From NCBI RefSeq assembly GCF_024691275.1, contig NZ_JAILNU010000009.1, forward strand, positions 29,502 to 93,501: DNA of 64,000 nt, given 5' to 3'. This document shows, in pieces, positions 10,677 to 13,811 of the stretch. The position numbers were made by a program, and so were the translations under genes. The notes under the pieces were generated by a model that ran no database searches, was not told where the DNA came from, and was given only the letters and a program-made list of their open reading frames with translations. Within the stretch, counting starts at the first letter, position 1; every line of letters starts with the position of its first letter. Source of the DNA: Ruminococcus sp. Lineage in GTDB: Bacteria > Bacillota > Clostridia > Oscillospirales > Ruminococcaceae.

Positions 10677-13307
10677 TTACTTAACAGTGTCTGCAACAAC
10701 GTCCGCAAATTTAGCAAGTGCATCGTCGATCTTAGCGATATCGCCTGCACCTGCCATAGCTCCGTCAGGCTTTCCGCCGCCCTTACCGCCTGTTACAGCA
10801 GCTATCTCGCGGACGATCTTGCCTGCGTTGGCACCCTTCGCAACAGCTTCCTTTGTACATACGCAGTAGAATGTGCCCTTTTCGCCGACAGTGCCTGCAA
10901 AGAGAGCTATAATAGCTTCGTCCTTGTCCTTGACGCTGTCGCCCAGCTTTCTGAGAGCATCAGGAGCAGAACCTTCCATACGTGCGGAAACGATCTTCAC
11001 GCCGTTTACTTCCTTAGCGTTGTCGAAGAGAGCAGCTGTCTTGGAGTTAGCTATCTGCTGTGTAAGGCTTTCCAGCTTCTTGTCCTTCTCCTTTGACTCA
11101 GCAGCAATTGCAGCGCACTTCTCGGGGAGTTCTGTGATATTTGCAAGCTTGAGAGCCTTTGCTGACTTGATGATAGTATTCTTGAACTCGTTGAGGAGAT
11201 TGATAACGTTCATACCTGTAACAGCTTCGATACGTCTTACGCCTGCTGCAACAGAGCTCTCGGAAACTATCTTGAAAAGACCGATCTGAGCAGTATTTGA
11301 TATATGAGTACCGCCGCAGAACTCAACTGACTTGTTAGCAGTTACAACGCGGACAGTATCACCGTACTTCTCGCCAAAGAGAGCCATAGCGCCCAGCTTT
11401 CTTGCCTCGTCGATAGGCATTTCCTTCATAGTAACAGGGAAAGAAGACATTATCTCAGCATTTACGATGTCCTCGACTCTTGCTATCTCCTCCTCAGTCA
11501 TAGCGCTGAAGTGGTTGAAGTCGAAACGGCAAGCCTTTTCGTTAACGAGCTGACCGGCCTGATGAACGTGGTCGCCAAGCACCTGTCTGAGTGCGTGCTG
11601 GAGAAGATGTGCAGTTGTATGGTTGCGCATGATAGCCATTCTGCGATCCTTCTCTATCTGAGCGAGGACTTTGTCTCCCTTGGAGATGCTTCCCTGCTCA
11701 ACTGTAGCGATATGGAGGAAATGTCCCTCTGACTTTATAGTATCATCAACAGAAGCGATATTAGCGCCGTTGATGAGCATACCTGTGTCGCCGACCTGTC
11801 CGCCGCTCTCAGCGTAGAAAGGAGTAACATCGAGAACGATAACAACATCGTCGCCCTCAACAGCTGTTTCAACTTCCTTGCCGTCCTTGTAGATAGCGAG
11901 TATCTCAGCGTCCTCAGCCTCGAAGTCGGTATAACCTGTGAATATAGTTGCCGGAGCATCTACCTTGATGCTGTTGTCAGCCCATGACGAACCTGCCTTT
12001 GCAGCGTGGTCAGCCTTAGCTCTTGCTCTCTGCTCCTTAGCAAGCTCTGTGAAGCGCTCGCGGTCAACTGTGTAGCCCTTCTCCTCGCATATTTCCTCTG
12101 TGAGGTCTATCGGGAAGCCGTATGTATCGGAAAGCTTGAATGCGTCGTCGCCCGAGAGTACCTTACCGCCCTCAGCAGCAAGCTTTTCTGTGAACTGATT
12201 GAGGAGCTCTGTGCCCTTGTCGATAGTCTTTGCAAAAGCTTCTTCCTCAACGCCTATTATCTTCTTGATATAGTCGCGCTTTTCAGCAAGCTCAGGATAA
12301 GCATTTGCGTTCTCGTTGATAACTGTATCGCAAACCTCTGTGAGGAAAGGTCTCTTAACGCCTAAGAGTCTGCCGTGACGGGCAGCTCTTCTGAGGAGGC
12401 GGCGGAGAACATATCCGCGTCCCTCGTTTGAAGGAAGGATACCGTCGCCTACCATGAAGGTAGTGCTTCTGATGTGATCTGTGATAACACGAAGCGAAAC
12501 GTCCTTCTTAGCGTCTTTCTTATATTCAACACCTGCAATGGAGGAAATGTGCTTCATGATATTCTGAACAGTATCTACCTCGAAGATATTGTCAACACCC
12601 TGCATTACACAAGCAAGTCTTTCAAGACCCATACCAGTGTCGATGTTCTTGCTCTTCATCTCAGCGTAGTGACCTTCACCGTCACTGTCGAACTGGCTGA
12701 AAACGAGGTTCCATATCTCAATAACTCTGTCGCAGTCGCTTGCCTGCTCGAAGCTCTCGAAAGGACCATAAGCCTCTCCGCGGTCAAAGTGTATCTCAGA
12801 ACATGGACCGCAAGGACCTGAACCGTGCTCCCAGAAGTTGTCCTTCTTGCCGAGACGGATTATCCTGTCGTGAGGGATACCGATATGGTTCTCCCAGATC
12901 TGCTCAGCCTCGTCATCGCTCTCGAATATTGTGATCCAGAGCTTTTCAGCAGGGATCTCAAGTGTCTTTGTGAGGAACTCCCAAGCCCAATCGATAGCCT
13001 CTGTCTTGAAGTAATCGCCGAAAGAGAAATTGCCGAGCATCTCGAAATATGTACCGTGACGAGCAGTCTTGCCAACGCTCTCGATATCGGGAGTTCTGAT
13101 ACATTTCTGGCAGGTAGTTACTCTCTTGTTCGGAGGAGTAGCCTGTCCGAGGAAAAACTTTTTAAGAGGAGCCATACCTGAATTGATAAGAAGGAGGCTC
13201 TTGTCACCCTGAGGTACAAGTGAAGCGCTCGCCATTCTTGTATGGTTCTTACTTTCAAAGAATGAAAGATACTTTTCACGAAGATCATTAAGACCTGTCC
13301 ACTGCAT
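10677..13307 (-). CDS. alaS: Alanine--tRNA ligase
   Basis: Full-length 876 aa; GNFSFGDYFKTEAI, HTTAHLLQHALR, FCGGTH; RBS AAAGGAG. Confidence 0.97.
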   Translation of the reverse strand: MQWTGLNDLREKYLSFFESKNHTRMASASLVPQGDKSLLLINSGMAPLKKFFLGQATPPNKRVTTCQKCIRTPDIESVGKTARHGTYFEMLGNFSFGDYFKTEAIDWAWEFLTKTLEIPAEKLWITIFESDDEAEQIWENHIGIPHDRIIRLGKKDNFWEHGSGPCGPCSEIHFDRGEAYGPFESFEQASDCDRVIEIWNLVFSQFDSDGEGHYAEMKSKNIDTGMGLERLACVMQGVDNIFEVDTVQNIMKHISSIAGVEYKKDAKKDVSLRVITDHIRSTTFMVGDGILPSNEGRGYVLRRLLRRAARHGRLLGVKRPFLTEVCDTVINENANAYPELAEKRDYIKKIIGVEEEAFAKTIDKGTELLNQFTEKLAAEGGKVLSGDDAFKLSDTYGFPIDLTEEICEEKGYTVDRERFTELAKEQRARAKADHAAKAGSSWADNSIKVDAPATIFTGYTDFEAEDAEILAIYKDGKEVETAVEGDDVVIVLDVTPFYAESGGQVGDTGMLINGANIASVDDTIKSEGHFLHIATVEQGSISKGDKVLAQIEKDRRMAIMRNHTTAHLLQHALRQVLGDHVHQAGQLVNEKACRFDFNHFSAMTEEEIARVEDIVNAEIMSSFPVTMKEMPIDEARKLGAMALFGEKYGDTVRVVTANKSVEFCGGTHISNTAQIGLFKIVSESSVAAGVRRIEAVTGMNVINLLNEFKNTIIKSAKALKLANITELPEKCAAIAAESKEKDKKLESLTQQIANSKTAALFDNAKEVNGVKIVSARMEGSAPDALRKLGDSVKDKDEAIIALFAGTVGEKGTFYCVCTKEAVAKGANAGKIVREIAAVTGGKGGGKPDGAMAGAGDIAKIDDALAKFADVVADTVK

Positions 13308-13335: not shown

Positions 13336-13449
13336 GGTGTACCGTACAGGATTTTAACCTGTGCCCTCCGACGTGGAACAGTTATGCTGTTACCGTCTTT
13401 GGCAAGACGGAGTTTTACATCGGCGTTCTGAACGCTGAACTAACGGTAC
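13336..13449 (-). ncRNA. tRNA-like element 2 (expanded, non-canonical)
   Basis: GTACCGT/ACGGTAC acceptor-like stem, TA, GTTC..GAAC D-arm, ACAGG-TTAAAAT-CCTGT T-arm, A+CC at 3' end; enlarged central region with CCGTCTT-GCCA-AAGACGG and AACAG-CATAA-CTGTT hairpins within CCGATG/CGTCGG. Confidence 0.7.
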
Positions 13450-13460
13450 GTATACATATA

Positions 13461-13555
13461 GGTGCGCCGTGCGGGATTTGAACCTGCGGATCATAAAATG
13501 CTGAACCTCTCTTATACAAGACAGTGATTTGCTCTGCCAACTGAGCTAACGGCGC
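13461..13555 (-). ncRNA. tRNA-like element 1 (long-arm, non-canonical tRNA or pseudo-tRNA)
   Basis: GCGCCGT/ACGGCGC acceptor-like stem, GCTC-AGTTGGCA-GAGC D-arm, GCAGG-TTCAAAT-CCCGC T-arm, A+CC; central hairpin CTGTCTT-GTAT-AAGAGAG gives no good 7-nt anticodon loop. Confidence 0.75.
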
Positions 13556-13556
13556 A

Positions 13557-13776
13557 TAAATAAAAACACCTCCGCCGCCAAATGGGACGAAGGCTCTCGT
13601 GGTACCACCCAAATTTAAGAAAACAGCTGTTTTCTCCTCATACATCTTTAACGCAGAAATACGCCTCGGTTTCCCGAAGAAGCTCAGGGGTAGCACCTGT
13701 CCGTCATGTAAAAGCTCGCACCGTCCGCTTTTTCTCTGAGGCATAACGCATACAGTCAGTCCCGTCAATGCTATAC
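13557..13776 (-). promoter_or_regulatory. T-box leader of alaS (Ala specifier GCT) with terminator
   Basis: T-box GGGTGGTACCACG on the minus strand; candidate specifier ...GGT-GCT-ACC...; terminator stem CCTTCGTC/GGCGGAGG then TGTTTTTATTT; upstream of alaS. Confidence 0.9.
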
Positions 13777-13782
13777 CTCTAT

Positions 13783-13811
13783 ATTATAACGCTGTTTCGT
13801 TCAAAAGTCAA
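13783..13811 (-). promoter_or_regulatory. Sigma-A-type promoter for the alaS T-box transcript
   Basis: TTGACT - 17 nt - TATAAT on the minus strand just upstream of the T-box. Confidence 0.85.

Follow-up and report, generated by a model that had tools for sequence, protein, structure and literature searches.

Two tandem tRNA-like elements lie on the minus strand between the T-box leader and the start codon of the alanyl-tRNA synthetase gene alaS in a Ruminococcus sp. from the rumen. They were studied in a 64,000-nucleotide stretch of assembly GCF_024691275.1 (contig NZ_JAILNU010000009.1, positions 29,502 to 93,501), hereafter the window. Judging by sequence comparison, both elements carry the same inserted module as the small RNA arrays encoded beside the genes for RtcB and for a DUF2828 protein, and they appear to belong to a Y-RNA-like system rather than to alanine sensing in itself. 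We consider it probable that they are tRNA-embedded Y-like RNAs, partners of a Ro60-like DUF2828 protein, which are co-transcribed with alaS and likely excised by the enzymes of tRNA maturation. We infer their binding, processing and function from the comparisons described below, which suggest that a tRNA-synthetase operon has taken in part of an RNA-repair system.

Structure of the Two Elements

From 5′ to 3′, the minus strand carries a sigma-A-like promoter, the T-box, a terminator, element 1, element 2, a ribosome-binding site (RBS) and alaS. The features were assigned as follows (coordinates are those of the window).

13783–13811, minus strand: sigma-A-type promoter, TTGACT (13811–13806) and TATAAT (13788–13783) with a 17-nt spacer, read directly
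13580–13777, minus strand: T-box leader (Ala), Rfam RF00230, 91.7 bits, E 1e-20
13558–13593, minus strand: intrinsic terminator of the T-box, CCTTCGTCC...GGCGGCGGAGG followed by a T-run, read directly
13461–13555, minus strand: element 1, tRNA-like RNA with an inserted module, degenerate copy; R1 model (see below) 83.3 bits, E 4.5e-16; Rfam tRNA 42.2 bits
13507–13524, minus strand: hairpin of element 1, CTGTCTT-GTAT-AAGAGAG, with one G-G mismatch
13499–13506, minus strand: linker of element 1, GTTCAGCA (consensus TAACAGCA)
13336–13449, minus strand: element 2, tRNA-like RNA (tRNA-Gly-like scaffold) with an inserted module, near consensus; R1 94.4 bits, E 1.1e-18; folding z-score −3.5
13418–13423, minus strand: 5′ strand of the anticodon stem of element 2, CCGATG
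13393–13410, minus strand: Y-type helix of element 2, CCGTCTT-GCCA-AAGACGG, in closed form; the sole closed-form copy among the 85 AAG-N6-ACAGCA sites examined in the genome
13385–13392, minus strand: conserved linker of element 2, TAACAGCA
13368–13373, minus strand: 3′ strand of the anticodon stem of element 2, CGTCGG; with the insert skipped, the loop would be GTTCCAC
10677–13307, minus strand: alaS, alanyl-tRNA synthetase of 876 aa, an open reading frame to which 88 of 100 genomes of the genus have relatives

The order, strand and coordinates of the elements had been proposed in an earlier reading of the letters alone (the original prediction) and were correct on re-reading of the sequence; the acceptor, D- and T-arms are likewise as described there. 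The core motif consists of a 7-bp helix with a short loop, mostly GNNN, then two nucleotides (YN) and ACAGCA, with a G after the other strand of the helix. The module is perfect in element 2 (CCGTCTT-GCCA-AAGACGG-TA-ACAGCA) and degenerate in element 1, where the helix contains a G-G mismatch and the linker reads GT-TCAGCA instead of the family sequence. The similar hairpins predicted for the two elements are indeed one and the same insert module, with the helix of element 1 degenerate. The CAGCAT sequence, previously taken for a second arm, is part of the conserved linker YN-ACAGCA that follows the hairpin.

In both elements the insert interrupts the anticodon arm, so the unspliced RNA has no 7-nt loop on a 5-bp stem. 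The statement that neither has a canonical anticodon arm holds to this extent, but element 2 keeps the stem CCGAT/GTCGG around the module. Without the insert, element 2 gives CCGAT-GTTCCAC-GTCGG, an arm similar to that of tRNA-Gly(UCC), and element 1 gives no sensible anticodon arm. A standard tRNA call was obtained only in part: element 1 was recognized by Rfam as a tRNA (42.2 bits) with a 26-nt insert and by ARAGORN as tRNA-???, and neither program called element 2. The folding z-score of element 1 was −2.3. In a search of the window against known Rfam families, nothing except tRNA and the T-box scored above or near the threshold; a match to Plastid-ycf2 was rejected, as it represents the reverse strand of a tRNA-like fold.

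The T-box score is slightly below the gathering score of 93 bits. Stem I, an antiterminator with UGGN and a terminator were found in the T-box region alone and not in the elements. Both elements lie downstream of the terminator, in agreement with the proposal that they would be made mainly upon T-box read-through, on a transcript predicted from this layout.

Distribution and Covariation in the Genus

To collect the alaS leaders, 100 genomes of the genus Ruminococcus were searched both at the DNA level and for AlaRS. One to four tRNA-like elements between the T-box terminator and alaS were found in 17 of 125 genomes, and the exact hairpin was present in records of Ruminococcus flavefaciens and of rumen Ruminococcus metagenome-assembled genomes. 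Conservation in related alaS leaders was therefore seen in a minority: most genomes had no elements, and in many leaders the T-box core lies about 70–100 nt before the start codon with no insert. In the leader of G095 only an apparent 3′ remnant of an element was left. Palindromic repeats of the AATTACGCATTACGAATTA type flank the elements in five alaS leaders (L071, L077, L084, L095 and L143).

An alignment of 23 elements (A1) was scored for the acceptor, D, hairpin and T helices. In total, 98% of the cells were paired and 13 of 23 pairs had changed on both sides, a level reached by 0 of 500 shuffles; sliding the helices lowered the pairing to 33–48%. These values should be read with the facts that the elements are mutually related and that the structure was defined on the same sequences as tested. 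The covariation expected of elements in alaS leaders was thus observed, and the view of the two as tRNA-like paralogues is borne out by a 23-member family. A covariance model (R1) built for the elements and scanned in the 100 genomes separated them (E ≤ 2e-11) from ordinary tRNAs (E ≥ 6e-8), and its matches were located at alaS or at DUF2828 genes.

These data bear on three other explanations. The elements could be decaying duplicated tRNA genes trapped in the alaS operon, and the broken helix and linker of element 1, as well as the remnant in G095, are consistent with it. However, conservation and covariation of the insert extend over paralogues, genera and phages, and acceptor stems of differing sequence are still fully paired. 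Decay is thus strongly disfavoured for the family and, as a general explanation, very unlikely; for element 1 alone, which is partly decayed, it is possible. Mimicry of tRNA-Ala for autoregulation by AlaRS, suggested by the position before alaS, is still less credible and is the explanation to which we give the least weight. As originally noted, neither element has the G3:U70 pair of an AlaRS substrate (position 3:70 is G-C in element 1 and A-U in element 2), the pair is found in only 1 of 23 family members, and the association of the family is with DUF2828 genes rather than with further alanine genes.

The third explanation is cis control, in which the elements would remain part of the alaS mRNA, whose translation or decay would be altered by DUF2828 binding or refolding, free RNA being unnecessary. 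The elements are always sense-oriented and lie between the terminator and the alaS RBS. Moreover, in the leaders of G028, G024 and G060 (L099, L100 and L108), no T-box was detected by Rfam; a terminator-like remnant is left, followed by two to four tRNA-embedded elements, which may have taken over control. Their persistence in these three genomes argues, in any case, for a role of their own. On the other hand, copy number (0–4), spacing and insert length vary freely among relatives, most of which have no elements; such elements also occur away from alaS, both upstream of DUF2828 genes and within the tRNA clusters of phages, and no conserved pairing to the alaS RBS was noticed by eye. Cis control appears to us rather unlikely and a weaker candidate than excised Y-like RNAs, although a more serious one than the two preceding explanations.

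Association with DUF2828 and RtcB

The R1 matches outside alaS adjoin a single kind of gene, encoding a protein with the Pfam domains DUF2828 and DUF7788, the latter being vWA-like (DGSGSM). In the genome under study (93% complete, 117 contigs), another contig (C4) contains, in this order, RtcB (PF01139, E 9e-109), a small-RNA array and the DUF2828/DUF7788 gene. The array of Y-like RNAs is located at L225:6208-6690, and one of its RNAs includes a T-arm hairpin. WYL-type regulators are found upstream of RtcB at this locus, in divergent orientation.

The array RNAs contain an open version of the core motif, in which strand A (7 nt) and then YN-ACAGCA are separated by a variable loop from strand B and G. 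As in YrlA, their basal stem is formed by their own 5′ and 3′ ends. Among 85 AAG-N6-ACAGCA sites of the genome, a fully Watson–Crick 7-bp partner followed by G was found at only four, three in the RtcB–DUF2828 array and one in element 2; this Watson–Crick class was picked by eye among eight hits that permit G-U. When the regions preceding 34 DUF2828 genes of the genus were examined, a full 7-bp partner and then G were found for 131 of 186 ACAGC[AG] sites; the reverse strand gave 1/35 and the coding body 2/35.

The elements and DUF2828 also co-occur. DUF2828 was present in 17 of 20 genomes with elements and in 46 of 105 without them (one-sided Fisher p 6e-4); for the alaS copies alone the count was 14 of 17 (p 0.004), and when the set was restricted to genomes with a completeness of 90% or more and a contamination of 5% or less, DUF2828 was found in all 11 element carriers (p 0.002), where the p-values ignore shared ancestry. 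Of the 13 longer loci inspected in the genus, 8 have RtcB next to DUF2828. Copies embedded in tRNA stand beside DUF2828 in three genomes of the genus and in two of other families. A possible HDV-like ribozyme (L195:2811-2884; 41.4 bits, gathering score 50) was found downstream of one DUF2828 gene.

Hairpins of the arrays resemble parts of tRNA. Fourteen of them, a number in which related sequences are counted repeatedly, have a 7-nt loop with the exact sequence of an anticodon loop from the genome under study (Phe, Lys, Glu, Asp and Ser); shuffles gave 0.06 and the reverse strand 0. Other array RNAs contain T-arm hairpins or permuted tRNA halves, like YrlA.

DUF2828 as a Ro60-Like Protein

A profile of 17 DUF2828 proteins was aligned by hhalign with six TROVE proteins nearly end to end (probability 96.4%, E 1e-9, 423 columns), and the same profile compared with RtcB gave a probability of 0.1%. 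Both a TROVE-type repeat and a vWA domain are thus recognizable, remotely, in DUF2828 plus DUF7788. By this profile match, the DUF2828/DUF7788 protein is a remote full-length homologue of Ro60/TROVE. No relatives of DUF2828 were found in the PDB by sequence, and NCBIfam and PADLOC hold no name for it; in PHROG it corresponds to family 850, 'RNA-binding protein'. DUF2828 was found in 63 of the 125 genomes of the genus and TROVE in one, where L254:453-1889 (G086) encodes the only true TROVE protein of the set.

Other Families and Phages

In two further families of the order, R1 elements were also found beside DUF2828. DUF2828 matched 681 phage records, and in mycobacteriophages it is annotated as 'Ro-like RNA binding protein'. 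Scanning viral contigs for the exact pattern of the Ruminococcus hairpin gave no match, because the helix sequence changes while the pairing is kept; a query with the DUF2828 protein later found the viral loci. In 80 such loci, which include near-duplicates, motif pairs were present at 146 of 261 upstream and 33 of 93 downstream sites, and the reverse-strand controls gave 0/20 and 1/43, respectively. Paired motifs were located on the DUF2828 strand in five of six annotated phages. Several viral motif loci sit in tRNA clusters, and R1 found about 50 tRNA-embedded copies.

In Listeria phage AG20, three Y-like RNAs directly precede DUF2828, and genes for RtcB and another RNA ligase follow it. In the transcriptome of the P100-like Listeria phage CKA15, a close relative of AG20, three highly transcribed unannotated regions were reported in the 2 kb that precede an Rsr-like gene, and the authors suggest that these are Y RNAs (PMC12282133). 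We infer that the three RNAs of AG20 correspond to the three abundant RNAs of CKA15. In Escherichia phage Alf5 (L428:6420) and in L365, the loops of Y-like RNAs contain a circularly permuted tRNA, as in YrlA, in the order T-arm, 3′ strand of the acceptor, 5′ strand of the acceptor and D-arm. In viral contigs L349 and L350, a Y-type helix surrounds an apparent complete tRNA gene.

Altogether, 76 tRNA-embedded elements were available: 23 from alaS leaders, 4 at DUF2828 in the genus and 49 viral or from other families. In these elements the module lies on the 5′ side of the anticodon arm. When it is skipped, 20 of 76 elements show five of five anticodon-stem pairs and a canonical loop (about 0.3 in shuffles), for example, GTCAC-CTTTTAA-GTGAC (Lys), GTCAC-TTCATAC-GTGAC (Met) and CGGGT-CTGTTAA-ACCCG (Asn).

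The restored arms raise the question of intron-like tRNAs, in which excision of the module and joining of the halves, possibly by RtcB under the guidance of DUF2828, would give ordinary tRNAs (Lys, Met, Gly and others). RtcB adjoins DUF2828 in the genome under study and in several relatives, and lies near it in the Listeria phage. However, the insert is not placed uniformly (28|29, 29|30, 31|32), and in many cases the loop is incomplete or has no U33. The same anticodon hairpins recur in the array RNAs, where there are no tRNA exons; a Leu-type loop (TTGAGGA) occurs in a scaffold with a short variable loop, and element 1 yields no sensible tRNA. We regard this explanation as unlikely. The same low estimate applies to its extended form, in which the Ro60-like protein would position removable modules and RtcB would rejoin the halves; this would be protein-dependent tRNA splicing or cleavage-repair in bacteria and phages, with the alaS-linked copies as conditional tRNA genes.

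Proposed Pathway

For the favoured excision of Y-like RNAs, we suggest the following pathway. Read-through of the alaS T-box would give a transcript consisting of the T-box, two Y-tRNAs and alaS. RNase P and RNase Z (or exonucleases and the CCA enzyme) would then excise the tRNA-like bodies as RNAs of about 95 and 114 nt, leaving an alaS mRNA with a short 5′ end; the RNase P/Z processing already proposed for the elements is plausible. The module is presumed to be the binding site of the DUF2828/DUF7788 ring protein encoded beside RtcB, and the 7-bp/ACAGCA core of the freed RNAs would bind this ring. The tRNA scaffold or anticodon look-alike would be the part presented: as tRNA mimics, the RNAs may tether or gate the protein for damaged tRNA or may serve as decoys for tRNA-cleaving nucleases. 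Their supply would rise when charged tRNA-Ala falls.

Several observations weigh against this pathway. The 7-bp/ACAGCA core is unlike the canonical Ro-binding stem of Y RNAs, and the 3′ CCA is not conserved in the family (ACCA, ACCG, ACCT, ACTA, ATTA). The elements and the DUF2828 gene are on different contigs, and three genomes (G016, G035 and G092; 75–88% complete) have alaS elements with no DUF2828 detected. The presence of the elements is patchy on the AlaRS tree, with at least 10 gains or losses (element-bearing genomes being over-sampled). Finally, Vibrio phage nt-1 has DUF2828 and no motif within 4 kb.

Comparison with Known Systems

The literature behind this comparison was searched among open-licence papers. 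In Y RNAs, the stem binds Ro60/Rsr and a tRNA-like domain is presented; in Salmonella, they are encoded together with RtcBA, and the operon is induced by tRNA fragments (PMC8394870, PMC7790460). The RNAs described here resemble YrlA (RF02553) in their tRNA mimicry (D-, T- and acceptor arms) and in being encoded with a Ro60-family protein and RtcB (PMC8394870, PMC7790460); the array RNAs in L196, L225 and L428 additionally hold a T-arm or permuted tRNA parts within the terminal helix. In contrast to YrlA, the tRNA of the alaS elements is not permuted, their termini pair as an acceptor stem and not as a basal stem, and the helix predicted to bind the protein lies internally, as a hairpin of the anticodon arm, with a core of 7 bp and YN-ACAGCA. 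RF02553 had no match in the window, and the best relative scored 30.5 bits (threshold 69). The alaS elements are therefore Y-like, tRNA-embedded RNAs and not members of YrlA: they combine tRNA mimicry with a link to the Ro60 family but lack the basal stem and fall below the Rfam threshold.

As in the Salmonella Ro60/Rsr–YrlA–RtcBA operon, a Ro60-type protein with TROVE and vWA parts, tRNA-mimic small RNAs and RtcB are united in one locus. Here, however, the protein is the remote DUF2828/DUF7788 homologue, many RNAs are found per locus, several of them have anticodon-loop look-alikes, and extra copies lie in the alaS leader. The putative Y RNAs of CKA15 (PMC12282133) are similar: an Rsr-like protein is encoded after phage tRNAs, and three RNAs without annotation are abundant. 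In that paper they were proposed without a consensus, whereas the present analysis defines the module and locates it in bacteria, in other phages and within tRNA scaffolds. For the DUF2828 proteins, which occur in 681 phage records and half of the genomes of the genus and have received very little study, this provides a concrete consensus of the RNA as well as a connection to Ro60 biology and to RtcB; it also reveals tRNA scaffolds that incorporate a Y-type module. With the anticodon-loop look-alikes, it can be tested directly whether bacterial Y RNAs act as a tether, a gate or a decoy for nucleases.

The modules recall tRNA introns in their insertion in the anticodon arm and in the tRNA restored on removal, but differ in the varying insertion point. 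The alaS T-box, directly upstream of the elements, should gate their transcription, but the elements lie downstream of its terminator and persist where no T-box is detectable. Their position at alaS suggests a link of tRNA charging with RNA repair.
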